From: Ignavibacteria bacterium
GTDB lineage: Bacteria > Bacteroidota > Ignavibacteria > Kapaibacteriales > UBA4661
Assembly: GCA_014654705.1 (NCBI GenBank)
Contig: JACVZY010000011.1
Coordinates: 1-64,000 of the forward strand
DNA length: 64,000 nucleotides
Direction: 5' to 3'
Shown: positions 19,147 to 33,400 of the stretch, in pieces
Layout of the letters: the number at the start of each line of letters is the position of its first letter
Position numbering within the stretch: the first letter of the stretch is position 1
Made by a program: the position numbers and the translations under genes
Notes under the pieces: generated by a model
What the model was told of the DNA's origin: nothing
Seen by the model: only the letters and a program-made list of their open reading frames with translations
Database searches by the model: none

Positions 19147-19239
19147 CATACTCCTACCATGGAACCATTCACATCAAGCTATTATCGCGAACGTGTGTTC
19201 GCACCTCATTTTTTTATCCACCAGATTCCGCCCTTTTCT

Positions 19240-22200
19240 ATGAATCGTACCTGTTCCTCTTTGGTCTCGCGTAGCGCTTGGGTGCTTGCGTTGACGTTCG
19301 TTTGTGCGGTTATGCCTATTCTTGCTCAATCAGGAGCGAAAGAAGCTTCGGAACCCGCATCGAAACTAAGCTATGATGCTTTCAAACTCCGCCCTATTGG
19401 TCCGGCGATTACCTCGGGGCGCATTTCCTCTATTGCCGTGCATCCCGCACAGCCTAGCGTCTGGTACGTGGCGGCTGCCTCCGGCGGTGTCTGGAAGACT
19501 GTCAATGCCGGCATTACGTGGCAACCTGTTTTTGAAAATGAAGGCTCGTATTCCATCGGTTGCGTTACGGTTGACCCCGCAAACCCGCACACTGTCTGGG
19601 TCGGTACTGGCGAAAATAATTCCCAGCGCAGCGTCGGCTATGGCGACGGCATTTACCGTTCGGACGACGGCGGAAAGTCCTGGAAAAATATGGGCTTGAA
19701 GACTTCCGAGCATATTGCCAGAATTCTTGTTGACCCGCGTAATTCCAATGTGGTATATGCTGCTGCGCAAGGTCCGCTTTGGTCAGCAGGCGGTGAGCGT
19801 GGTTTGTACAAATCCACCGACGGTGGTAAAACGTGGAAAGCGTCCTTGACTATTAGCGAAAATACGGGCGTTACTGATGTGGTCTTTGACCCGCGCAATC
19901 CCGACATTCTCTATGCCGCATCGTATCAACGCCGCCGACACGCTTGGACGCTGATTGACGGCGGTCCGGAATGTACGATTTACAAAAGTACCGATGGCGG
20001 TGCGTCGTGGCAGAAAGCCGAAAGCGGTTTGCCAGCAGGACAAATGGGGCGTATTGGGCTTACAATTGCGCCGTCCAACCCTGATGTTCTCTATGCTCAC
20101 GTAGAAGCTGCCAACAAAAAAGGCGGTATTTTTCGTTCTGCCGACCGAGGGGCAACATGGGAAAAGCGTAATAGCTATGAGACAACAATGATGTACTACG
20201 CGACTATCTACGCAGACCCCAAGAATGCAGATAGAATCTACGTGATGAACTTTAATATCATGGTTTCTGATGATGGCGGTACAACACTGAAGGCGCTCGG
20301 TACGAAGTCGAAACACGTGGATAATCACGCGATGTGGATTGACCCCGAAAACACGAATCATTATTTGGTCGGCTGCGATGGTGGTTTGTACGAAACGTTC
20401 GACCGTGCTCAGAACTGGCGGCATACGCCCAATCTACCTATCACCCAATTTTACCGTGTCTCGGTGGATAACGCGCTCCCGTTTTACGGTGTTTATGGCG
20501 GAACGCAGGATAATTTCTCGCTTGGTGGTCCTTCCAGAACAATCACGCAAAACGGCATTACCAACTACGATTGGTTCGTAACGCAAGGCGGTGACGGCTT
20601 CCAATCACAGATTGACCCCAAAGATCCGAACATTATTTATGCTGAGTTCCAAAATGGCGGTTTGGCACGATTCGACAAAAAAAGCGGCGAGCGCATCGGT
20701 ATTCAGCCGCAGCACGGCAAAGGCGAAGAGCCGCTACGCTGGAATTGGGATGCGCCGCTTATCATTAGCCCGCACCTGAACACACGGCTCTACTTTGCCG
20801 CTCAAAAACTCTTCCGCTCCGACGACAGAGGAAATTCATGGAAAGCTATCAGTCCTGATTTGACGCGCCATCTCGACCGCGACAAACTACCGGTCATGGG
20901 TAAAATTTGGAGTGTGGATGCGGTTGCGAAGAATGCTTCGACGGCGTTTTACGGGAATATCTCTGCCGTTTCGGAATCACCCAAAAAAGAAGGGTTTATC
21001 GTTGTCGGCACTGATGACGGCTTGGTGCAAATCACCGATGATGGTGGCAAGACATGGCGTAAAATTGAGAAAATAGGCGGAGTTGCTGAAAATGCTTACG
21101 TGAGCCGTGTGGAATGTTCGCAGCACGACGCAAATGTTATCTACGTTTGCTTCGACAACCACAAAAACGGTGATTTTAAGCCGTACATTTTCAAAAGCGC
21201 CGATGCAGGTAAGACGTGGACAAGTTTGCGCGGGAATCTGCCCGACGGCGGCATGGCGCTTGCGCTGGTGGAAGACCACGTTGCGCCCGGACTGCTCTTT
21301 TTGGGGACGGAATTTGGCGTGTATGTGAGCACCAACGGCGGACAAGCATGGAAGCCCCTTAAAGGGAATTTTCCCACGATTGCCGTGCGTGACCTCGCTA
21401 TCCAAAAGCGTGAAAACGACCTCGCGCTGGCAACATTCGGGCGCGGCTTCTACATCTTTGACGATTATACGCCGCTTCGCGCCATCGCGCAGGGCGCATT
21501 TGACGCAAGCAAGGCGGCATCGGTCTTTCCAGTGAAGGATGCGCTGCTTTATACCCAGTCATCGCCATATGGTGGTGGTGGCAAAGGCTTCTTGGGTGAA
21601 ACGTTCTATTTGGGCGAGAACCCATCATTTGGTGCAGTTTTCACGGTGTACCTCAAGGAAGCACTTAAAACAAAGAAGCAAATTCGCCAAGAAGCAGAAA
21701 AAAGCGGCGCAGCAAAATCCCTCACGCAAGACGAACTCCGCGCTGAAGAGGAAGAAGAAGCACCGTCCTATTTCGCTACTGTGAGCGACGCAGCGGGCAA
21801 TGTGGTGCGCCGCTTGAGCCTCAGTAATAGTGCGGGTTTGCAGCGCGTGGCGTGGAATCTGCGCTATCCCGACATCATTCTTGGGCGCTCGTCCGGCGGC
21901 GATGACGATGACGACGATAACGGGAGCAATTTTGTGCTGCCTGGCGCATACACGGTCAGCATTTCCAAACGCACGGGTGCTACGACGACGCAAATTACGG
22001 ACCCCGTGACGTTCAACGTCGTTCCGCTCAACAACACCTCGCTCCCCGCACCTGACCGCAAGGCGCTTCTGGACTTCCAGCGTAAAACGGCGAATTTATA
22101 CCGTGCCGCACAAGGCGCATCCGACCTTGCGGGCAGCACAAAAGCAAAATTGGCTTCGATGAAAAAAGCCCTCATGGAAACACCGGTAGTCCAAACGCAA

Positions 22201-22548
22201 GCGGCACAAACTCTCGCACTCCGCGACGAAATTAGCGGCTTGGAACAGCGATTGAATGTGCTTTTGCGCAATCTTCGTGGCGACCAAATCCTTGCGGCAC
22301 GTAATGAAAACGTCCCGAATGCAATTCTGGATAGATTGGGGCAAATTGCCTACGAGCAGTCGCGTTCCACATCCCAAGCAACGCAGGAACATCTAAGCGG
22401 CTATGCTATTGCGGCGCAGGAATTTGAGCAGGAATTGGCAAAATTGAAGCAATTAGTCGAAGGTGATATTCCGCGCCTTGAAAAAGCACTGGAAGCACTC
22501 GGAGCACCACACACGCCGGGGCGCTTGCCGGAGTGGAAAGACAAATAA
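19240..22548 (+). CDS. Secreted BNR/VPS10-like repeat protein, copy A
   Basis: 1102 residues from ATG 19240, which gives a clean signal peptide ending AILAQ-like (VMPILAQS). The region of about 40-740 is a propeller-like array with many Asp-box units of the form S-x-D-G-G-x-T/S-W (SDDGGKSW, STDGGKTW, STDGGASW, SADAGKTW), as in sortilin/VPS10-type and sialidase-like folds; these are often annotated glycosyl hydrolase without proof. A C-terminal part (about 790-1100) has a Glu-rich stretch, an acidic run GGDDDDDDNG and helices. No T9SS tail is visible. The start at 19159 would add 27 residues without family support. It is paralogous to the minus-strand gene at 23406-26672. Confidence 0.85.
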   Translation: MNRTCSSLVSRSAWVLALTFVCAVMPILAQSGAKEASEPASKLSYDAFKLRPIGPAITSGRISSIAVHPAQPSVWYVAAASGGVWKTVNAGITWQPVFENEGSYSIGCVTVDPANPHTVWVGTGENNSQRSVGYGDGIYRSDDGGKSWKNMGLKTSEHIARILVDPRNSNVVYAAAQGPLWSAGGERGLYKSTDGGKTWKASLTISENTGVTDVVFDPRNPDILYAASYQRRRHAWTLIDGGPECTIYKSTDGGASWQKAESGLPAGQMGRIGLTIAPSNPDVLYAHVEAANKKGGIFRSADRGATWEKRNSYETTMMYYATIYADPKNADRIYVMNFNIMVSDDGGTTLKALGTKSKHVDNHAMWIDPENTNHYLVGCDGGLYETFDRAQNWRHTPNLPITQFYRVSVDNALPFYGVYGGTQDNFSLGGPSRTITQNGITNYDWFVTQGGDGFQSQIDPKDPNIIYAEFQNGGLARFDKKSGERIGIQPQHGKGEEPLRWNWDAPLIISPHLNTRLYFAAQKLFRSDDRGNSWKAISPDLTRHLDRDKLPVMGKIWSVDAVAKNASTAFYGNISAVSESPKKEGFIVVGTDDGLVQITDDGGKTWRKIEKIGGVAENAYVSRVECSQHDANVIYVCFDNHKNGDFKPYIFKSADAGKTWTSLRGNLPDGGMALALVEDHVAPGLLFLGTEFGVYVSTNGGQAWKPLKGNFPTIAVRDLAIQKRENDLALATFGRGFYIFDDYTPLRAIAQGAFDASKAASVFPVKDALLYTQSSPYGGGGKGFLGETFYLGENPSFGAVFTVYLKEALKTKKQIRQEAEKSGAAKSLTQDELRAEEEEEAPSYFATVSDAAGNVVRRLSLSNSAGLQRVAWNLRYPDIILGRSSGGDDDDDDNGSNFVLPGAYTVSISKRTGATTTQITDPVTFNVVPLNNTSLPAPDRKALLDFQRKTANLYRAAQGASDLAGSTKAKLASMKKALMETPVVQTQAAQTLALRDEISGLEQRLNVLLRNLRGDQILAARNENVPNAILDRLGQIAYEQSRSTSQATQEHLSGYAIAAQEFEQELAKLKQLVEGDIPRLEKALEALGAPHTPGRLPEWKDK

Positions 22549-23405: not shown

Positions 23406-26400
23406 TTAGTTTTTAAGCGGTTCTGTCTTGCCAAAAACAGTAAATCCAGCATTTTCTACTTGCTGACGATAGGCGCTCACGTCTGTCTCAAAGAATTTAT
23501 TCACTCTCTCCAAGACCCCACCCAAACGGATTTTTAGTTTTTCAAACTTCACCTGAGCTGCCTCGGTAGGCGCATCGTAGCTGCTACCGATAGTGCCTTG
23601 CAGCGAACCAATCTGCGGCATAATCTCTGCCTGCCGGTCATAGATGCCGCTCCGCTCATCATTTGGAATAAATTGCTCCATAAGCGAATCCAACTTGCTC
23701 TCAAGAGCTTTGCCGGCTTTTGCCAGCGAGTCCGCTTTTGGCTTATTGAGGGTGCTTTTTGCAAAATCATTCACCGTTTTAATCGTTTTGCGCATTTCCA
23801 CCATCTGCTTCACCGCTTTGGCACTGGTTTCCATCATACCGCCAACGCGCATTTGCATATCGTAAATTGCCTTGAGTGCCCCGGCGTCAACTTTAATGCG
23901 GGGTTCGGGGGCGATTTCAAAAGGTTGAACGGCAGTCGTGCCACCATATTTCATGCGGGCAAGGTACGTGCCGGGCAGAAGGTCAATACCGCCTGCATCA
24001 CCGTCATCGTCTCTGCGCTCACGCTCTGCGCGGCGTGGGCGCTCAAATTCTTTGCGCCGAAGGTCAAATGCCACGCGATTGATACCTTTTTTCATGGTGC
24101 CTTTTATCGTCCGCACCACGCTTGAATCAGCACTGTTCAGAATCTCAATGCTGATTTTCTGTGCTTTCGGCGTTTCATTTTTCGCCAAAATACTATCTGC
24201 CGGATTCAGAATGTAGGAAATAAGCGCTCCGTATTGGCGCTGCTCGCCTTTGAACATGGCACTACCTGTGCCGATATATGCGCCAGCGTAGAGTTCGTAA
24301 TTTGCAGCAACGGCGCGACTGATTTCAAAAAGATGAAGGGGCTTGGAAGCAAGCGTGGAAGCGCCTTTCTTTGCCAATTCGCGCAAAGGACGAATGTCGT
24401 CCAGCACGTATATACCGCGCCCGTGCGTGGCAATGACCAAATCATGGTCGCGCTGGTGAATCGCTATATCTGTTACTGGCACAGTCGGGAAGCCGCTTGT
24501 CCACTTTTGCCAATTTTTACCCGCATTCAGGCTGACATAAAGTCCAAACTCCGTTCCCACAAAAAGTAGGTTCGGTTCAATAATATCTTGGCGAATGACG
24601 TGGCAGAAGCCATCTATTTCGGGCGTTGCCAGTGATTGCCATGTTTTACCAAAGTCGCGGGTAACAAAAACGTATGTTTCCCAATTTGAACGGCGATGGT
24701 CGTCGAAGACCACAAATGCCGTTGCTGCGTCATGCTTGGAGGCTTCGACGTGCGGCGACCAGATTCCTGCCGGAACACGTGATTTTGCGCCATCGGTCAG
24801 GCTTGCGCTGACACGAGACCATGTTTTACCGCCATCTTGGGTAAGCTGCACGTTGCCGTCATCCGTCGAAACCCAGAGTACACCTTCCTTCAAAGGACTT
24901 GGAGCGATGGATAAAATTGTGCAATGATTCTCTGCCGCCGTTACGTCGCGCGTGATACCGCCGCTCTCATTGGATTTTTGCTTTGCGGGGTCGTTGGTGG
25001 TAAGGTCGGGGCTGATGATTTGCCACGAGTCGCCTTTATTCACGCTTTTGTGGACGAATTGACTGCCGTAATAGATAGTTTTTGAGTTAAAAGGGTCAAG
25101 CGCAATCGCCGCGTTCCAGTTGTAGCGGTGCTTCACTTCTGGCTCACCCGGACGGCTCTCGGTGGGGCGAATACTTTTGCGAACACCTGTTTTGATATGC
25201 CCGTAAAGCAGCGCTCCACCTTGCGACATTGCATAGCAGTATTCGTTGTTTTCGGGGTCGGGAATGGTCGCAAAGCCATCACCAAAGCCAACGGTTATCC
25301 AGTCGTAGTTGTAGATGCCGTCGAAATGCAGTGAATTGGAAGGACCGCGCCATGAGCCGTTGTCCTGCAAGCCACCGTAAACGTTGAACGGGTAATCATT
25401 GTCCAACGCCACGTGGTAGAATTGCCCAAGCGGGAGATTATCCACAAAGCGCCAATTTTTGCCGTTGTCCTCCGAAATGCCGATACCGCCGTCGTTGCCG
25501 ACAATCATATATTTGCCGTTGGGGTGAATCCATAGTTCGTGATGGTCGGGGTGAATGGTCGTGTACGGATAGAGCGGCGAAAAGCTCTTGCCGCCGTCTG
25601 TGCTTACGTCCATCGTTACCTGCAAGCGATAAATCGTGTTTTCATTTTGCGGATGAACACGAATGTCGCAGAAGTAGAATGGACGCGGGTTGATATCAAA
25701 TCTGCTGTTCACTGTGCGCCATTTTTCGCCACCATCGTCCGAGCGGAGCAGTGCGCTTTCTTTTGCTTCCACGAGTGCATAGACCACGCCCGGAGTGCTT
25801 TTGGCAAAAGAAATGCCGACGCGCCCCATCGTACCTTCCGGCATACCGTCTTTATTGGTCAGTCGTGTCCATGTCTCGCCGCCATCGCTGCTGGTGTACA
25901 TACCGCTTCCTGTACCGCCGGAGGTGAAGAACCACGGATAACGACGGTGCTCCCACATGCCGGCAATGAGGCGGTTCGGGTTGTACGGGTCTTGTGCAAG
26001 TTCCGCGCAGCCGGTTTTGTTGTCTACGAATAAGGTTTTACGCCATGTCTTGCCACCATCGGTGGTTTTGAATACGCCACGCTCGGCATTTTCGCCCCAC
26101 GTTGTACCCATAGCCGCTACCCATGCCACGTCGGGGTTGGTGGGGTGCAGAATCACGCGGTGAATCCGCTCGGTTTTCTCCAAGCCTATATTTTTCCATG
26201 TTTTGCCACCGTCCAATGATTTGAAGATGCCGCGCCCCACGCCCGCACTATTGCGGACGTTTCCTTCGCCTGTGCCAACCCAGACGGTGTTAGGATTACC
26301 CGCAAAGCAAGCAATTGCACCGATGGACGAAGTATTCTGCGTGTCAAAGACGGGCTGCCACGTTGTGCCACGATTGACGGACTTCCACACACCGCCTGTG

Positions 26401-26672
26401 GCTGCGCCGACGTAGATAATATCGGGGTTCTGCGGGACGGATTCAATCGCAGCCACACGCCCGCTCATTCCTGCCGGGCCGATAGAGCGTGGTTTTATGC
26501 CAAGAAAGAAGATAGAATCAAGGCTTTGAGCCGATACGGTAGTAACCTGTACCGTGACAACCTGAATCACACAAAGAATTGCTAGTGCGATTGTCCCTAC
26601 AATCGTCATTGCAAGTGTGCGCTGTGTGCTGCGCAGAGGCGAGCTGTTCCCGTTGGGAGAAGAAAAGTGCAT
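23406..26672 (-). CDS. Secreted BNR/VPS10-like repeat protein, copy B
   Basis: 1088 residues, with a long signal region ending VTTVSAQS. Repeated Asp boxes (SLDGGKTW, TTDGGKTW, SSDGGETW, STDGGKSF, TQDGGKTW) across about 60-780 make a multi-bladed propeller; ATHGRGIYVLDDIRPLREL parallels AT-x-GRGFYIFDDYTPLRA in copy A. The C-terminal part has a basic/acidic linker (RRAERERRDDDGDAGG) and a helical region close to that of copy A. The two are clear paralogues with long divergence in sequence, in opposite orientation around the DUF4149-like gene. A role in extracellular protein or glycan binding or breakdown is plausible; no catalytic residues can be named. Confidence 0.85.
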   Translation of the reverse strand: MHFSSPNGNSSPLRSTQRTLAMTIVGTIALAILCVIQVVTVQVTTVSAQSLDSIFFLGIKPRSIGPAGMSGRVAAIESVPQNPDIIYVGAATGGVWKSVNRGTTWQPVFDTQNTSSIGAIACFAGNPNTVWVGTGEGNVRNSAGVGRGIFKSLDGGKTWKNIGLEKTERIHRVILHPTNPDVAWVAAMGTTWGENAERGVFKTTDGGKTWRKTLFVDNKTGCAELAQDPYNPNRLIAGMWEHRRYPWFFTSGGTGSGMYTSSDGGETWTRLTNKDGMPEGTMGRVGISFAKSTPGVVYALVEAKESALLRSDDGGEKWRTVNSRFDINPRPFYFCDIRVHPQNENTIYRLQVTMDVSTDGGKSFSPLYPYTTIHPDHHELWIHPNGKYMIVGNDGGIGISEDNGKNWRFVDNLPLGQFYHVALDNDYPFNVYGGLQDNGSWRGPSNSLHFDGIYNYDWITVGFGDGFATIPDPENNEYCYAMSQGGALLYGHIKTGVRKSIRPTESRPGEPEVKHRYNWNAAIALDPFNSKTIYYGSQFVHKSVNKGDSWQIISPDLTTNDPAKQKSNESGGITRDVTAAENHCTILSIAPSPLKEGVLWVSTDDGNVQLTQDGGKTWSRVSASLTDGAKSRVPAGIWSPHVEASKHDAATAFVVFDDHRRSNWETYVFVTRDFGKTWQSLATPEIDGFCHVIRQDIIEPNLLFVGTEFGLYVSLNAGKNWQKWTSGFPTVPVTDIAIHQRDHDLVIATHGRGIYVLDDIRPLRELAKKGASTLASKPLHLFEISRAVAANYELYAGAYIGTGSAMFKGEQRQYGALISYILNPADSILAKNETPKAQKISIEILNSADSSVVRTIKGTMKKGINRVAFDLRRKEFERPRRAERERRDDDGDAGGIDLLPGTYLARMKYGGTTAVQPFEIAPEPRIKVDAGALKAIYDMQMRVGGMMETSAKAVKQMVEMRKTIKTVNDFAKSTLNKPKADSLAKAGKALESKLDSLMEQFIPNDERSGIYDRQAEIMPQIGSLQGTIGSSYDAPTEAAQVKFEKLKIRLGGVLERVNKFFETDVSAYRQQVENAGFTVFGKTEPLKN

Positions 26673-26896
26673 AGTGGTAAACGTGGGTAAGTGATGAAAT
26701 GGAGATTAAATCCTGAACGACGCAAATATCGCTCCAAATCGTCAGAAAACAAAGCCTGTGCCTTAGGAAAAACACTCTCTCTGCCACAGAATTTTCAATT
26801 GCCGAAAACATCGTTGTTGAAATCACAATTCCTCGCTAAATTGCGACTCCAGAAAAATCGAACTCCAAATGTCCAACTACTATCGCCCACAGCCAC

Positions 26897-27460
26897 GTGA
26901 ACTTTGATGACCTCGCACGACAGTACAATGAAATGACAGAGAAGAAAATTCTTATGTCATTCAAAGGCGCTTTTGCGCAGCCGATTATTGTTGAGATTGG
27001 GCAGACGCTTCGGAGCAAAATAGCAGCACAGCCCGTAGAATCTATCACAGAGCGTACGCTTCTGATGAAAAAGATTTTTGCAGTGTTTGTAGAATTGGCA
27101 CAAAATGTGATGTTTTATTCCGCAGAACAAGAGCTGGACGAGTACGGCAAAGAATGTGGTGTTGGAATTTTAGTCATCAGTGAAAATGCAGAAACCTATT
27201 GCGTTAGTTCCGGCAATCAAATCGCTTCTGCCGACGGAGAGCGTCTCAGTACTCTTTGCGAGTCAGTCCGAGCACTTTCCAAAGAAGAGCTAAAAGAACG
27301 TTATACCGAGCAGCGACGGTTGCCACGTGGCAGCAGTAGTGGTGCGGGTTTAGGGTTTCTTGACGTTGCTCGCCGTGCAGACTTACCCTTGGAATACGCT
27401 GTTACGCCACTTTCCGGCGACCGCGCACTTTTTATGCTGTCTGCTTATTTTGCCAAGTAA
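26897..27460 (+). CDS. SiaB-like protein kinase (DUF6272)
   Basis: 187 residues from GTG 26897. In Pseudomonas, SiaB phosphorylates the small protein SiaC. Matching features: ILMSFKGAFAQPIIVEIGQT near the N-terminus, an N-box-like VELAQNVMFYS where a GHKL-type ATPase holds Mg-ATP, and a Gly-rich SSSGAGLGFLDVARRA loop, all in SiaB order and length. A SiaC-like gene follows two genes downstream, supporting the call. No SiaA phosphatase is beside them. The start is uncertain: no clear SD precedes GTG, and ATG at residue 13 (26933) is an alternative; an ATG at 26868 opens a different short frame. Confidence 0.75.
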   Translation: MNFDDLARQYNEMTEKKILMSFKGAFAQPIIVEIGQTLRSKIAAQPVESITERTLLMKKIFAVFVELAQNVMFYSAEQELDEYGKECGVGILVISENAETYCVSSGNQIASADGERLSTLCESVRALSKEELKERYTEQRRLPRGSSSGAGLGFLDVARRADLPLEYAVTPLSGDRALFMLSAYFAK

Positions 27461-27493
27461 TCATAATTCCATTATTACACTCTCTCCTCAGCT

Positions 27494-28036
27494 ATGCCCA
27501 CAAAAACAGTAAAAGCAACGACTGCAAAAGCAGAAGTCAAGAAATCAAGTCCTGCAAAAGCAAGTCCTGTAAAAGCAAGCGTTACGAAAGAAGCAATAGA
27601 GGAAGTACCAATCCCAAAAGCAAAAACGGTGAAAGCTAGAGTCTCGGCAAGGGTGGATGCACCGCCGCAGGTTGCAGTTCCAAAAGTTGTCTCAGCACAA
27701 GGCTCGTCGGCAAAAATTGAAAAGATTAAAGCGGATTTTGCGAGCCTCACGCCCGGAGAACAGCGTGTACTTCTGACCGAGTGGAGCCAAAGTGTTAAAG
27801 CGACGGAAAATCCTATCACGGCACTGGTGGAATTGGTGCAAAAGACTTTCGGAGCAAATCTTACCACCGAAATATGGACAGAAGGCGCTTCGCACGTGCC
27901 TGTGGTTTATTGCAAACTTATCATGCCCGATGGCACGGAATATACCGCCAGTGGTAAAAATCAAAAAATCGCCAAACTTCTCGCTGCAGAAGAGGCGCTC
28001 GCTGATTTACAAAAGCCTGATGCAAATTTGTTCTGA
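27494..28036 (+). CDS. Free-standing dsRNA-binding domain protein with Lys/Ala-rich tail
   Basis: 180 residues. Residues 1-75 are Lys/Ala/Ser/Thr/Val-rich and probably disordered. Residues 106-172 read as a complete dsRBD: NPITALVELVQK for helix 1 with the RNA-facing Glu, SHVPVVYCKL for the region-2 loop and strand, DGTEYTASG, and KNQKIAKLLAAEEAL for the helix-2 KKxAK/AA signature. In bacteria this domain is nearly always the tail of RNase III; here there is no nuclease domain. It lies 33 nt after the SiaB-like gene and 57 nt before the SiaC-like gene, inside what looks like one operon. A role in RNA binding follows from the fold; any link to the phosphorelay is inference. Confidence 0.8.
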   Translation: MPTKTVKATTAKAEVKKSSPAKASPVKASVTKEAIEEVPIPKAKTVKARVSARVDAPPQVAVPKVVSAQGSSAKIEKIKADFASLTPGEQRVLLTEWSQSVKATENPITALVELVQKTFGANLTTEIWTEGASHVPVVYCKLIMPDGTEYTASGKNQKIAKLLAAEEALADLQKPDANLF

Positions 28037-28093
28037 CGGGGCGATGTAGTTTTTACGATTCGCATACCTTTCTCACGCTATGAATCTTACGTT

Positions 28094-28477
28094 ATGACCG
28101 ACATTACTTTTACCAAAACAACAACAACGCCTACTGTAACGGGACGTGTGGCTGACGGCTTCTTAGAGATTATCGGTGAATCCTACCCTGAAAATTCAGT
28201 AGAGTTCTACCAGCCCATTTTTCAATGGCTGCGCGATTTTATGGATTCGCAAAAGCGCCACCTGACGGTCTATTTTAAGATGCCTTACTTCAATACCAGT
28301 TCTTCAAAGTGTATTTTGGATATTTTGGACATACTCCAAAGTTATCACTACACAAGTGGTGGCGCGGTGGAAGTAACGTGGTGGTACGATGAAAGCGACG
28401 AAGACATGCTCGAAAGCGGTAAAGAACTGAGCGACGGACTGGATTTGAAATTTTTATTTATGCCGTACTCCGACTAA
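28094..28477 (+). CDS. SiaC-like regulatory phosphoprotein (DUF1987)
   Basis: 127 residues, the usual SiaC size. SiaC switches a partner cyclase or other output depending on phosphorylation by SiaB. The GESYPENSVEFYQPIFQWL opening, TVYFKMPYFNTSSSKCILDI (whose Thr/Ser cluster matches the phosphosite region of the family) and the WWYDESDEDMLESGKEL end are typical. The preceding SiaB-like kinase and the following nucleotide cyclase make this a likely three-part signalling unit; in Pseudomonas the output is a diguanylate cyclase (SiaD), whereas here the neighbour is an adenylate cyclase. Confidence 0.85.
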   Translation: MTDITFTKTTTTPTVTGRVADGFLEIIGESYPENSVEFYQPIFQWLRDFMDSQKRHLTVYFKMPYFNTSSSKCILDILDILQSYHYTSGGAVEVTWWYDESDEDMLESGKELSDGLDLKFLFMPYSD

Positions 28478-28587
28478 TTCGGCAGATTTTCTCAAGCACG
28501 ACCTTCTTATCGGCTCCGTGCGCACATCGGGCAACTGTATGGGGCAAGAGAATTACCCTTACAGAACGCGCCTTTTACAAAACTTGT

Positions 28588-29625
28588 ATGAGCAACGGGA
28601 CACCATCCGACACACGAGAAAGCGCTTCAGCACAAGCGCTTATGGCGCACGACAATATTGCTGAGATGTTCAAAAGTGAGCTGGAAACGGTTGAATACAC
28701 CCGTAGCGTTCTCCACAACCACACACTAAGTTTTGAAGAGCTGCTGAATGAATATCGGCTCTTGGGGCAACAGTATGAAAATCTTCTCAAGCAAGCTGCA
28801 AAACTAACGCGCATCGGGGATGTGGCGCAGCGTAAACTCATCAATACCAAAAGCGAACTTGCTGCGCAGTCGCAAGCGATTGAACGGGCGAATAGTGAGT
28901 TGCAAGAAAAGAATGAGCGTCTCAAGGAATCCATTGAGGAAATCAATCAACTCAATCTTGTGCTCGGCAATGAGCAGGCAAAAGCGGATAATTTACTGCT
29001 GAACATTCTTCCGCCGGGGATTGCGGCGCGGCTGAAGGAGGGGGAAGACAAGATTGCGGATTATTTCGAGGAAACAACAGTCGTCTTTACGGATATTGTC
29101 GGCTTTACTAATCTTGCCTCTCTTGTTTCCGCTACGACCATTGTCAAGCTCTTGAATACACTTTTCTCGCGCTTCGACGGGCTTCTCGATCATTATCCTG
29201 TCGAAAAAATCAAGACTATCGGCGACAGCTATATGCTTGCCTCCGGCATTCCCACTCCCCAGAAAGACCATGCCCTGCAAGCTGCGGCATTTGCATTTGC
29301 AATGCTGAATGAACTGCGGCGTTTTGTGGCGGAGACCGGCTATCCTATTTCGATGCGTATCGGTATGCACAGCGGACCGGTGGTTGCGGGTATTATTGGG
29401 ACTCGTAAGTTTGTCTATGACCTTTGGGGCGACACGGTCAATATTGCCAGTCGTATGGAATCGCACGGGCAGCCGGGAAAAATCCATTGTTCAGAAACGG
29501 TCTATCGTGAACTGTCCGATGTGTACAAATTCGAGCGGCGTGGAGCGATTGACATTAAAGGCAAAGGCAAGATGGATACCTATTTTTTGATTGATGAAAC
29601 AGCGAATAAACTCACTCGTGGCTAA
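28588..29625 (+). CDS. Class III adenylate cyclase with N-terminal coiled coil
   Basis: 345 residues, soluble. Residues 25-135 form a long coiled coil; 136-335 are the cyclase domain. Metal-binding Asp are D169 in VFTDIVGFT and D213 in IGDSYM; adenine-selective Lys is K209 in KIKTIGD and Asp is D278 in VYDLWGD; N285 and R289 in VNIASRM stabilise the transition state. All are present, so ATP-to-cAMP activity is expected, as a homodimer. It sits 110 nt downstream of the SiaC-like gene. In SiaABCD systems the unphosphorylated SiaC activates its cyclase through an N-terminal helix; a similar contact with this coiled coil is a reasonable inference. Confidence 0.92.
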   Translation: MSNGTPSDTRESASAQALMAHDNIAEMFKSELETVEYTRSVLHNHTLSFEELLNEYRLLGQQYENLLKQAAKLTRIGDVAQRKLINTKSELAAQSQAIERANSELQEKNERLKESIEEINQLNLVLGNEQAKADNLLLNILPPGIAARLKEGEDKIADYFEETTVVFTDIVGFTNLASLVSATTIVKLLNTLFSRFDGLLDHYPVEKIKTIGDSYMLASGIPTPQKDHALQAAAFAFAMLNELRRFVAETGYPISMRIGMHSGPVVAGIIGTRKFVYDLWGDTVNIASRMESHGQPGKIHCSETVYRELSDVYKFERRGAIDIKGKGKMDTYFLIDETANKLTRG

Positions 29626-29653
29626 TAATTTTTTCATTTCCATTTCTTTTTAT

Positions 29654-30181
29654 ATGCGTCGTTTTCACCGTATTATCTCATTTGTTGCCGGAATTTTTCT
29701 GGCGCTTATCTCTGTAACGGGTGTTTTGCTTCATGTCCGTGAATTTCTTGAAGAAGGAGAGCGTGAGGCACCCAAAGAAACTTCCTATAATCTGGCATCC
29801 GGTATGCCTGCTGAATGGACAAACGCTATCAACAAAGGCTTGGCAGCAGTCGTGGCACAAAATCCGAGCGCACACATTGAGCGCATCCGTGTGGATATAG
29901 ACAGAGAAAAGCCACGCTTTGTGCTGCAAACTAGAGAACGTATCAATTATCTCATTGGTGCAGATGGGCAGATTCTGAAGGCAACAAAGCAAGAAAAGAA
30001 TCTGCTGTTACGGCTCCACACAGGCGAAATTATTGGCGACGCAGGAGAAGTACTTAATTTTCTTTTTGGCTTAGGACTTGTGGGATTGCTTGCGACGGGC
30101 TTTGTGATGCTGTGGGATATGTTCCGAGCAGCGCCGGATGCGCGAACAGCACTCCGTCGTATTTTTGGCATCAAGCCATAA
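29654..30181 (+). CDS. PepSY-associated membrane protein
   Basis: 175 residues from ATG 29654. One N-terminal membrane helix (IISFVAGIFLALISVTGVLL), a periplasmic PepSY-like domain (INKGLAAVVAQNPSAHIERI and following), and a C-terminal helix (VLNFLFGLGLVGLLATGFVM). LRLHTGEIIGDAGEVLNFLF is the hallmark of PepSY_TM proteins, often near iron or siderophore uptake genes, but none is here. It begins 28 nt after the cyclase gene and is probably in the same transcript. Function unknown. Confidence 0.8.
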   Translation: MRRFHRIISFVAGIFLALISVTGVLLHVREFLEEGEREAPKETSYNLASGMPAEWTNAINKGLAAVVAQNPSAHIERIRVDIDREKPRFVLQTRERINYLIGADGQILKATKQEKNLLLRLHTGEIIGDAGEVLNFLFGLGLVGLLATGFVMLWDMFRAAPDARTALRRIFGIKP

Positions 30182-30187
30182 AAAAAC

Positions 30188-30224
30188 TTGGTCATTGACG
30201 AAAAAAGCAATAATTTGCTAATCT
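30188..30224 (+). promoter_or_regulatory. Candidate tRNA-Pro promoter
   Basis: Two overlapping readings are possible: TTG (30188-30190), 20 nt, TAATTTG (30211-30217), one base short of the Bacteroidetes consensus; or TTGACG (30195-30200), 18 nt, TAATCT (30219-30224), sigma-70-like. Either starts transcription roughly 10-20 nt before the tRNA. Confidence 0.45.
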
Positions 30225-30243
30225 GTTTTCGTTGAAAACACGG

Positions 30244-30317
30244 CGGACTGTAGCGCAGCCCGGTAGCGCACTACTTTGGGGTAGTAGGGGTCGTGGGTTC
30301 AAATCCCGCCAGTCCGA
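30244..30317 (+). tRNA. tRNA-Pro(GGG)
   Basis: Acceptor arms CGGACTG (30244-30250) and CAGTCCG (30310-30316) with discriminator A pair perfectly; the C1-G72 pair is typical of proline tRNA. The anticodon arm is CTACT-TTGGGGT-AGTAG, placing GGG at positions 34-36. The T arm is GTGGG-TTCAAAT-CCCGC. No CCA is encoded. It reads CCC and CCU codons. Confidence 0.97.
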
Positions 30318-30329
30318 CTAAACACACGC

Positions 30330-30364
30330 CACAGAGCGGCTTGCCGCTTAAAAAAGCATCTGTG
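30330..30364 (+). other. Nested hairpin after tRNA-Pro
   Basis: CACAGA (30330-30335) pairs with TCTGTG (30359-30364); inside, GCGGC-TT-GCCGC forms a tight hairpin (30336-30347). Parts of it (CACAGAGCGGC, TGTGCAACA) recur at 22558-22588 near another terminator. Confidence 0.45.
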
Positions 30365-30380
30365 CAACAATCTATACAAC

Positions 30381-30425
30381 AAAAGGACGTTTTTTGGCTA
30401 TGTAATGCCGAAAAACGTCCTTTTT
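30381..30425. terminator. Strong bidirectional terminator after tRNA-Pro
   Basis: AAAAGGACGTTTTTTGGC (30381-30398) pairs almost fully with its complement ending in CGTCCTTTTT (30416-30425). It separates the tRNA from the convergent 5.2-kb gene and should stop both. Confidence 0.9.
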
Positions 30426-30475
30426 AGTATCCTGCCCAATATATCGAAAAGTGCCTGACAGAAATATCTGAGCAG

Positions 30476-33400
30476 TTACCGCACAACAATAACCTTCCGC
30501 GCCGCCAGCTCCCGCCCATTGCGGAGTTGGATGAAATATATTCCCGACGGCAAGCGGCTAACATCCAATACCCGTGTGTTCAAACCACGCATCGACGTAA
30601 AACGCTGCTCGGCGAATAGCATCGGGTCGGGGCGCACACCAAGCGCGTTGATGAGATTGAGCGTGTACTCCTCTGCATCATGCGAGGTAAATTCTAGCGT
30701 CAATTCCGTCGATGCCGGATTCGGTCGTGCATCCACGATGCGGAGCGTGCCCATGGTCGCAATCACTAAGCGCAATCCGCCTGCCCGTGAAATACCGACC
30801 AAACGAAATGTTGCCGTACTGGCGTTAATGGTCATTTTAGGAACGCGCGTTTCGGGTGTTTTTTGAAGCCGTAGCACCGTAGAGGTGTCATTGCCTAAAG
30901 CCGCACGGAAGCGTAAAGTGGCAAGTGGTACGGTGGGGTCATCGCTTTTGACCTCGAAGGAAACGGGTATCTTTCGCTCACCGAGCCATACTTCTCCAAA
31001 TGGCAGGGGCAAAAGAGGTTGCAGAAGCGAAACATTGTAGCGAATGGTGTCGGTGATGACGGTTCCAATGGGGACGCGGGCGCGATTGCGCAAGAATACC
31101 TTCGTTTGTGCAGTATCGCCGGGGGCGGCATAAAAGTTTTCAAGGACTAAGTCGGCAATTCTTGGTGGCAGTGTGGAGGCGCTAAGAGACAATGTCTGTG
31201 AGATAGAGCAGCTTGTTACGCCCGCAATACCAAGGTTAAACTGAAATGAGTCCGAGAAATTTCGCCCAGCGATGGCACTGGTAAATATCACCTGTACACT
31301 GTCTTTTGAATACGGCGCAATCGTTGCCGGAGCTTGCAGTCGAAACTGTGCCAAGCCGCTTTGAGGCTGGCGAGGAAGTATTAGTGGAATACTGCTACGA
31401 TTGTAAATCTGTACAAAGGCAGTGGACGTGACATCTGCTTCGAGTGGTGGAAAGGTAAGAGATGAAGGGCTAATTTCCACGCCTAGAACGTCGTGTTTGA
31501 TAATGCTGAGTAGCACACGAAAGGTTGCGGCTGTACCGTCTCGGTCAGTAATAATGAGGCTTAAGGGCGGAAGGGCGCCCGTGCGAACAAGAGTATCAAT
31601 TCGTACTTTCACCTTTGTCGTTGTCCCTGCTACTAATTGCCCCAGAGTGTCGGGAAGGCTTGCGAACGATAAGGGTGGGTCAAGGGAATACTTGACATTC
31701 GCCAGTGCAGTGCCGATATTACTTACAGGGACTTCCAGTGTTGCGGAACTTGCGCACGTCGGTAATACTGCGGGAGATACGGCAAAAAATACTGGTTTCG
31801 ATTCCACTGTTGCCGAAAGCACGATAGTTTCCGCCGAGCAGCTATTGGGAATGGGAACCGTATCTTGGTAGGTAATACCCGGCAGACCGCCTAGAAACGT
31901 AGCCTGCAAGGTAGTAGTGGCATTGGACGCAAGAACTCCCGTCGCGGTAGTTTGTGCTGTTATGCGAAAATATTGCTTTTGCGAAAGGAACACTGAGGCA
32001 GGGTACCACTGCGACTCGCTATTACCCTTGTTCGTGATAGTGATACTTGCTCTTGCGGTCATTCCTGAATCTGTTTTTGGCAGGACGACTAATGAAGATG
32101 GCAAAATATTCAGCAAAGGTCGTTCTAAACGCCCGTACAAAGGAACACTCACAATGCCTCGAATGGAGTTGGAGGATATGACAACCGTAGCGAACGTTGC
32201 GCCGAATGGTTGCTGGGGCGTGAAACGCAGGCGGAGATTACCAGTATCTTGGGCATTAACTCTCTGCGGCTGACTTAAAATCTCAAAGTCGCGGCTGGAA
32301 AGGTTATCCAGCCTGACAATACGAATACTATCAAGAACCAGTGTTTGTGTGCCGATATTGGGAAGTGGAATGTTGATTATCCGAACACTACAATCGTGCG
32401 CACCCTGTACCACAGGCGGTGTAGCGATAGCGTTACCCAAGCGTGGTGCATCTACTATGCCCGTGCCGAAAAGCGGTACAGTAAGCGGTGAACCCGATTG
32501 ATTGAAAGTGAACAGAAGTGGTGCCCCAAAGCGTCCAATAACTGATGGCGTAAAGCGAAGATTTACTGTGATAGAAGCACCTGGTGGAAGAGTAATTACG
32601 CCATTATTGACATTAGCACTTACACCAAGAATTCTAAAAGTCGAATCTGGTAATTTGCTCATATTTTGGATAATTGGGTAATCAATGCGGACAGGAATGG
32701 TGCTAACGTTCCGTACTACTGCTTGCAAAGTATCATAGTCCATTTTGATAAAGCGTTCTCGCCAGTCTATACGTGAAGTCGTTACTTGAAGAGATGGTGG
32801 CACCCCCATGCCCGAAATCTTTGCGCCCAGTGTGTCGCCGGCGGCGGTTTGATAGAATACGCTATCGGTTTGTGCTCCGTCCATCTGTGGCGAAAAACGG
32901 AATTCTATCTTGTACAGCACTTGTGAGAGCGGCACCGCAGCACTTACAGTGAAGGGGGCATCGCCGGAGACAATCGAAAAAGGGCTTTTCGGGTTTTTGA
33001 ACCAAATATGTTTTATGCCGACAGGGTATTGATCCTGATTAGTAAGTGCAGAGTGCGTTGTGTCTTTTTTTGTGCCAATAACAGCTTGCCCCGTGCTGAT
33101 ATCTTTTGCTGCCAGACGCGGGCGGACAATGCGCCAGAGATCATTGGAGACATCTTCTTGAAGGGGAAATTTTTCGAGAATATACCAAACAATAACTTTA
33201 CCGTTTTCTCCGGCTGTCACAACGCGGCTTGTCGAGGGATCGAAAAATGCGGTATTCACCAAAGGTCCTCCCGTGGTATTCGTTTCGTGGCGTAAAGTTA
33301 TCACTAATTGCCCGGTTGCCACTTCCCATAGTTGCGCCGTACCATTTGCCATCGCAGTAATCAGGAACGTTCCTGTGCGGTCAAATGAAGCCATACCAAT

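Follow-up and report, generated by a model that had tools for sequence, protein, structure and literature searches.

Eukaryotic dsRBD proteins usually contain several dsRBDs or an enzyme domain in one protein and act in RNA silencing or editing, and bacterial RNase III carries a C-terminal dsRBD together with an endonuclease domain. Two types of dsRBD are distinguished, namely RNA-binding Type A and protein-binding Type B, and in the portions of PMC5716075 and PMC5549741 considered here the lysines of Region 3 tell the two apart, Type B domains being described as without them. In the SiaABCD system of Pseudomonas aeruginosa, as outlined in the portions of PMC7647112 and PMC8457831 used here, a SiaB-family kinase and a SiaC-family phosphoprotein are accompanied by a downstream diguanylate cyclase, SiaD, and Thr68 of SiaC is the residue phosphorylated by SiaB (PMC7647112, same portions). 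In the 64,000-nucleotide stretch of Ignavibacteria bacterium DNA analyzed in this study, hereafter called the window, a gene for a free-standing dsRBD protein lies between siaB-like and siaC-like genes, and the features of this region are as follows.

26897..27460, + strand: siaB-like serine/threonine kinase gene (SiaB family, DUF6272), 187 aa; NF038262 SiaB_fam_kinase, 3.5e-47, 160.2 bits, cut-off 85; PF19788, 8.7e-37
27494..28036, + strand: free-standing dsRBD protein gene, 180 aa, ATG start; PF00035 match, AlphaFold2 model, orthologues under purifying selection
27494..27709, + strand: disordered basic tail, residues 1-72; composition, substitution rates, pLDDT under 50 for residues 1-67
27698..27802, + strand: two-helix segment, residues 69-103; helices 69-83 and 87-103, kept with the dsRBD across the family
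27812..28009, + strand: dsRBD, residues 107-172; PF00035 placement and predicted fold, Region 3 being Q157 K158 .. K161
28094..28477, + strand: siaC-like regulatory phosphoprotein gene, 127 aa; PF09345, 1.4e-39, Thr68 kept
28588..29625, + strand: class III nucleotide cyclase gene, 345 aa, predicted to make an adenylate cyclase whose N-terminal part is helical; PF00211, 8.3e-64
29591..30181, + strand: PepSY-associated TM protein gene, possibly the last of the run; PF03929, 2.1e-14

The 180-aa protein belongs to a small family in which a known domain carries a two-helix extension, and its gene has an unusual position in an operon. The PF00035 (dsrm) profile aligns over its full length (model positions 1-66 of 66) with residues 107-172 of the protein at an E value of 2.1e-6 and 28.7 bits, above the cut-off of 23, and all three dsRBD motifs quoted in the initial annotation are present. 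When the contigs of the window's own genome (G000) were scanned with dsrm, four matches were obtained, two of them above the cut-off; this locus scored 30.3 bits, and the sole stronger match (64.5 bits) lies on another contig in a 310-aa frame, which is the size of an RNase III. In the AlphaFold2 model, for which the window protein was supplied with eight family members, the dsRBD takes the α-β-β-β-α fold that the initial annotation had anticipated, with helices at residues 107-119 and 157-172 and strands at residues 124-130, 137-143, and 149-154. The mean pLDDT is 88-94 for residues 111-170, 76 for residues 101-110, and 63 for residues 171-180. Two further helices (residues 69-83 and 87-103) precede the dsRBD, and residues 1-67 are disordered. 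The ORF product is thus predicted to be a small protein consisting of a two-helix segment and one dsRBD of the canonical type, preceded by the tail, which, as described initially, is rich in Lys and Ala (14 K/R and 13 A in 72 residues, net charge +9). The 50 Foldseek matches listed, with E values from 2.9e-5 downwards, are dsRBD-bearing proteins and, in a few cases, chains of mitochondrial ribosomes; RNase III, Dicer, TRBP, Staufen, and ADAR are among the matches listed by Foldseek or VIA-align, and VIA-align superposes the model on 1di2 with a Z-score of 11.2 (68 residues, 1.4 Å).

The RNase III catalytic domain was not found in the protein, in agreement with the initial annotation; TIGR02191 matches only at model positions 146-218 of 219, with 16.7 bits against a cut-off of 166.25. 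An RNase III remnant was considered and rejected. Some VIA-align superpositions extend over residues 62-175 and include the catalytic part as well as the dsRBD, but with an RMSD of 5 to 15 Å, and when the family was compared with ten RNase III proteins by hhalign, only the dsRBD was aligned. It is possible that the dsRBD descended from RNase III; for the two helices such a descent would be hypothetical. HicA toxin, which has a dsRBD-like fold, was also rejected as an assignment: a Pfam search with E values up to 10 gave no HicA family, and the neighbouring genes are siaB and siaC, not hicB.

Eleven of the 123 genomes of the order encode a member of this family. Within the taxonomic family of the window's genome, homologues occur in seven of the ten genomes, all in one genus (seven of its eight genomes); the single-protein search of the 123 order genomes added G245 (E = 2.4e-5), and when 391 class genomes were searched with a profile, G285, G286, and G287 (E = 1.8e-29 or better), all from the same order, were gained as well. 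Matches to the tail or helix part only, at E values of 0.005 to 0.1, were not counted in the order search (G214, G234, G270, and G288), and 61 of the 71 genomes matching in the class search were dropped, their matches being 3.6e-7 or weaker and mostly in frames of RNase III size. Among 395 genomes of the phylum no further member was found, since the seven matching genomes comprise three known members and four with frames of 259-263 aa. Three genomes, G203, G205, and G200, were taken to be the same as L006, L007, and L008 and were counted once; the named relatives are metagenome-assembled genomes of Candidatus Kapaibacterium and Ignavibacteria. The rarity of stand-alone dsRBD proteins in bacteria, which the initial annotation had asserted, therefore holds for this order, and its scope is the order plus the class and phylum samples.

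The Pfam dsrm profile gave 129 matches in 118 of the 123 order genomes. Frames of RNase III size account for 115 of these, the present family in the genus for 7, two long proteins that combine an RNB exonuclease with dsRBDs for 4, and short or partial frames (G241, G286, and G218) for 3; distant members lie below the Pfam cut-off, as for G285 (17.1 bits). The two long proteins, both from the same order and another taxonomic family, are L119:60-2273 in G238 (PF00773, 4.9e-59, three C-terminal dsRBD matches) and L120:2144-4495 in G254 (PF00773, 1.2e-55, two C-terminal dsRBD matches). In the profile libraries searched (Pfam, other protein-family models, PHROGs, and PADLOC), the present family is absent by name, and no paper on this family was seen among the open-licence papers listed.

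Six members (G199, G201, G245, G285, G286, and G287) are compact tail-less proteins of 115-122 aa encoded apart from SiaBC, and the most distant members are approximately 30% identical. When the structure of one distant compact member was predicted together with nine relatives, the two helices and the dsRBD appeared again (mean pLDDT 81). In window numbering, G131, H134, and P136 of the loop and G154, N156, Q157, K158, A160, and K161 at helix 2 are invariant in all 11 sequences, and the two-helix segment also has invariant residues (F, L, Q, L, and E). The conserved unit is therefore larger than the dsRBD named in the initial annotation, the helices of residues 69-83 and 87-103 belonging to the family. 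The tail is present in the four siaC-linked genomes and G205 only and is missing in the six members that do not adjoin siaC; the tailed proteins group apart from those of G199 and G201 with a support of 89/100 in a midpoint-rooted tree. Beside the compact dsRBD gene of G245, an open frame (L023:104-529) encodes a repeated peptide, which suggests a CRISPR-like direct repeat array.

The dsRBD core is under strong purifying selection, whereas the tail is nearly free to change. The genes of G200 and G205 differ in the core by 18 synonymous and 0 non-synonymous changes (0 of 240 non-synonymous sites changed) and in the tail by 5 synonymous and 9 non-synonymous changes. Between G000 and G203, dN is 0.054 in the core and 0.67 in the tail, and the core ratio of 0.03 is rough because dS is high (1.74); in the computable pairs the core dN/dS is 0 to 0.22, dS being saturated in the others. 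The net charge of the tail is +6 to +10 in the five tailed members. The core pattern therefore indicates a constrained protein, with a tail that is free except for staying positive. A 130-aa frame on the opposite strand could suggest that the ORF is a translation or overlap artefact without a protein product; given the core dN/dS, the unchanged non-synonymous sites between G200 and G205, and the confident predicted fold, this can practically be dismissed.

The gene stands, as the initial annotation stated, between a kinase and its substrate, with gaps of 33 bases from siaB and 57 bases to siaC. The SiaC-family protein matches P. aeruginosa SiaC (6kko) at 2.2e-19, with NTSS in register and Thr68 aligned. 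The cyclase and adenylate cyclase 9 share the lysine of EKIKTIG and the aspartate of Y-D-x-W-GDTVNIASRM, residues that we take to select ATP over GTP. PycC models match the catalytic part of the cyclase (best 59.9 bits), and no Pycsar effector was recognised beside it. A SiaC followed by a class III cyclase, a combination on which no paper was seen among the open-licence papers listed, probably joins SiaC-type switching to cAMP, not c-di-GMP. A PepSY homologue with 84% identity follows the cyclase in G203, and no match to the PepSY gene was found in the stretches of G204 and G200.

Spacing and orientation suggest that the run is co-transcribed. This is not certain because terminator-like matches exceed chance (9 found, against a mean of 4.3 with an sd of 2.2) and one on the + strand lies inside the dsRBD gene (27883-27901); the two flanking gaps contain none. 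Sigma-70-type promoter matches numbered 3, with 4.1 expected by shuffles. A search for RNA families at 26000-31000 gave only the downstream tRNA, whose gene (30244-30317, + strand) comes soon after the PepSY gene. Just upstream of the operon, two convergent genes (19159-22548 and 23406-26672) encode very long proteins with repeats of a similar type, sortilin or BNR-like by eye.

The order siaB-dsRBD-siaC-cyclase is found in G000, G203, and G204. In G200 the order is dsRBD-siaC-cyclase with no adjacent siaB, and the upstream gene (579 aa) is in the opposite orientation; G205 was left out of the linkage count, its contig ending next to the dsRBD gene. Three different upstream and three different downstream neighbours flank the block in these four linked genomes, the flanks being common to G203 and G204 only upstream and to G000 and G203 only downstream, and the dsRBD-siaC-cyclase block has therefore stayed together through rearrangement. 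In the congeners G199 and G201, the tail-less dsRBD gene follows a thioesterase gene instead; the thioesterase is present in all ten genomes of the taxonomic family and has the dsRBD gene beside it in these two only. In the sister genus, at L135 (G198:C32), the thioesterase gene is preceded by a SiaBC pair, from which a single open frame separates it, and a relative of this intervening frame precedes the unlinked dsRBD gene in G199 and G201. SiaC genes without siaB were also seen beside a protein that by sequence reading would combine CheW with a receiver and be CheV-like (L115:4538-6130 in G201 and L116:4484-5935 in G199).

Of 33 SiaC loci, 28 were examined, the omitted ones being two at G198:C194 and one each at G198:C295, G198:C141, and G200:C410. 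Nine of the 28, all from the taxonomic family, adjoin a class III cyclase, 8 of these 9 being preceded by SiaB; at G201_C29, a 32% match spanning 93 residues was excluded from the cyclase count. The dsRBD gene is present in four of the nine SiaC-cyclase operons and missing in G200_C473, G201_C18, G199_C147, G202_C206, and G198_C200. The operon G202_C206 shares a clade with the dsRBD-bearing operons (support 98/97 for SiaC and 95/98 for the grouping of its cyclase with that of G204). In its 148-base siaB-siaC gap, neither a dsRBD remnant nor a deletion scar was found, and no homologue of the dsRBD family was found elsewhere in G202; the module therefore persists without the protein. Across the 123 genomes of the order, SiaC matches occur in 20, the dsRBD protein in 11, and both in 7, which is not independent evidence of a link because all seven belong to one genus. 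The co-occurrence with SiaB/SiaC that the initial annotation suggested checking thus exists in that genus and fails in G245, G285, G286, and G287, which have the protein and no SiaC match (completeness 76, 96, 91, and 96%, respectively); the absence from G245 is weak evidence because of its completeness.

These distributions bear on whether the protein functions within the SiaB-SiaC-cyclase switch, docking on SiaB, SiaC, or the cyclase, reporting dsRNA, or being switched itself. Conservation of the gene directly upstream of siaC and the cyclase in four genomes with three different neighbours on each side would fit such a part, as would the tail occurring in the same clade as the linkage, and a direct functional tie is another possible meaning of a linkage that persists while the flanks differ. 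Against it, the G202 operon belongs to the same SiaC and cyclase clade with no dsRBD gene, trace, or homologue elsewhere in the genome, three sister-type operons and the G198 operon are without the gene, G200 has no adjacent siaB, and G199 and G201 carry the dsRBD gene unlinked. A working part of the switch is on balance unlikely, though it deserves to be kept in mind. A more specific form, in which duplex RNA (e.g., of phage or antisense origin) on the dsRBD protein alters SiaB or SiaC and turns the class III adenylate cyclase on or off, as an analogue of animal dsRNA-sensing signalling, would be very unlikely.

The proposal in the initial annotation that the protein is a phosphorylation target is not borne out. 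The Ser/Thr-bearing tail is nearly free to change and is absent from the six members away from siaC; five of the nine readable SiaC-cyclase operons are without the protein, and four protein-bearing genomes are without a SiaC match. This role was set aside in view of the near lack of constraint on the tail and of genomes or operons that have the protein or the switch alone. To our knowledge, action of a SiaB-type kinase on a low-complexity tail would also be unusual. An RNA-binding output role, the other suggestion made there, is possible; any control of it by SiaB or SiaC would be hypothetical. The earlier interpretation as a whole is partly supported.

Whether the dsRBD binds RNA was considered from its three regions. 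The His of Region 2 (H134) is invariant in 11/11. Region 3, which usually has three lysines, begins with Gln (Q157) and continues with K158 and K161, both invariant in 11/11. The Glu of Region 1 is not kept family-wide in the 11-sequence alignment. The 69-residue dsRBD has a net charge of -2, and the RNase III stretches compared range from -4 to +7; acidic charge was rejected as an argument against RNA binding, since the RNase III stretches overlap this value and charge does not decide the matter. The Gln at the first Region 3 position, the variable Region 1, and the net negative dsRBD are what would be expected of a Type B domain that uses the dsRBD fold for dimerisation or partner contact and not for RNA, and the conserved two-helix segment could be its interface. 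Such domains are without the Region 3 lysines in the portions cited of PMC5716075 and PMC5549741, whereas the present family keeps the Region 2 His and two of the three lysines in all 11 sequences, and the RNase III dsRBDs of the class, among those listed, likewise have two of three lysines (KK-x-A-E). We regard a Type B domain as quite improbable, and the conserved residues make RNA binding by the dsRBD protein likely.

Phages of Bacteroidota (2 of 50,697 phage records) and two viral contigs also encode dsRBD proteins that stand alone and share the G-x-NQ(K/R)-x-A-(K/R) motif, which raises the question of a mobile or phage-derived passenger, i.e., a dsRNA-binding protein that hid phage or antisense duplex RNA, was domesticated, and was placed here by chance. 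The Porphyromonas phage proteins (PP754928.1 and BK068088.1) are 49% identical to the window protein over 53% of the query, and they and the proteins of the viral contigs (IMG/VR L110 and L111) have a single C-terminal dsRBD. In one Porphyromonas phage, the gene comes directly after an Apyc1-like anti-Pycsar nuclease. However, the match covers the dsRBD alone, the N-terminal part of approximately 70 residues of the phage-encoded proteins being their own and unlike that of the window family; the family is kept in the genus under strong purifying selection, and no phage gene was recognised beside the dsRBD gene. A passenger origin is therefore highly improbable. PHROGs gave only a 12.9-bit match (E = 0.13), a plasmid search gave no match to the dsRBD protein, and viral contigs yielded no relative when the Porphyromonas phage protein was used as the query. 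A defence system was rejected, PADLOC (E up to 0.01) giving no match for the dsRBD protein, SiaB, or SiaC. The phage protein at PP754928.1 7805-8272 (L121:3767-4234), annotated as hypothetical, is a possible counter-defence protein in view of its place after the nuclease gene, and the viral-contig proteins (L110 and L111:4779-5213) are further free-standing dsRBD proteins.

The dsRBD protein is most likely an autonomous structured-RNA-binding protein that was recruited to the operon, and not a required SiaB/SiaC component. Autonomy is argued from the compact members that stand apart from SiaBC, the 4 of 11 genomes without a SiaC match, and the five of nine operons without the gene. Recruitment is argued from the dsRBD-siaC-cyclase order kept in four genomes despite differing flanks and from the tail, found only there and in G205. 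As a complete account, an autonomous RNA-binding protein with a role of its own whose gene was recruited beside siaC is the best explanation, towards which we lean slightly; its RNA-binding part is suggested by the conserved residues. The dsRBD would bind structured or double-stranded RNA in the A-form with little sequence preference, with putative contacts through Region 2 (the G-x-x-H-x-P loop) and Region 3 (K158 and K161). The tail may add non-specific, charge-based affinity, and the two helices may form a surface for dimerisation or for a partner. A role separate from SiaBC is the more probable one, and the protein would then probably be a post-transcriptional regulator or an RNA chaperone. 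Within the genus, the gene would in one clade have come to adjoin siaC and so to be made with the SiaB-SiaC switch, which would probably set the activity of the adenylate cyclase. The operon link may reflect co-expression only or also contact, and either reading is possible.

What a solitary dsRBD does in bacteria can be asked here of a defined object, a small conserved family whose members have the dsRBD as their only domain, extended by two helices. If the protein acts in the SiaB-SiaC-cyclase module, a phosphorylation switch and a second messenger would be coupled to duplex RNA; in either case, the occurrence of SiaC together with a class III cyclase suggests that switching of the SiaC type extends past c-di-GMP.

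Among solved structures, eukaryotic dsRBD proteins (TRBP, HYL1, ILF3, and ADAR2) match the window protein best in sequence and account for many of the top structural matches, and no sign of descent linking them to the window family was found. The C-terminal dsRBD of bacterial RNase III shares the fold, the profile match, and the loop and helix motifs (70 columns in hhalign, probability 96.6). Unlike RNase III, which mostly has NKK-x-AE, the window protein is without an endonuclease domain, has NQK-x-AK, and carries two helices and a basic tail ahead of its dsRBD. With SiaABCD, the locus shares the SiaB-family kinase and the SiaC-family phosphoprotein with Thr68 in register (PMC7647112 and PMC8457831, in the portions used). 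No SiaA-like PP2C phosphatase was found among the genes scanned at 26897-30181, a class III cyclase takes the place of the diguanylate cyclase SiaD, and siaB and siaC have the dsRBD gene between them.
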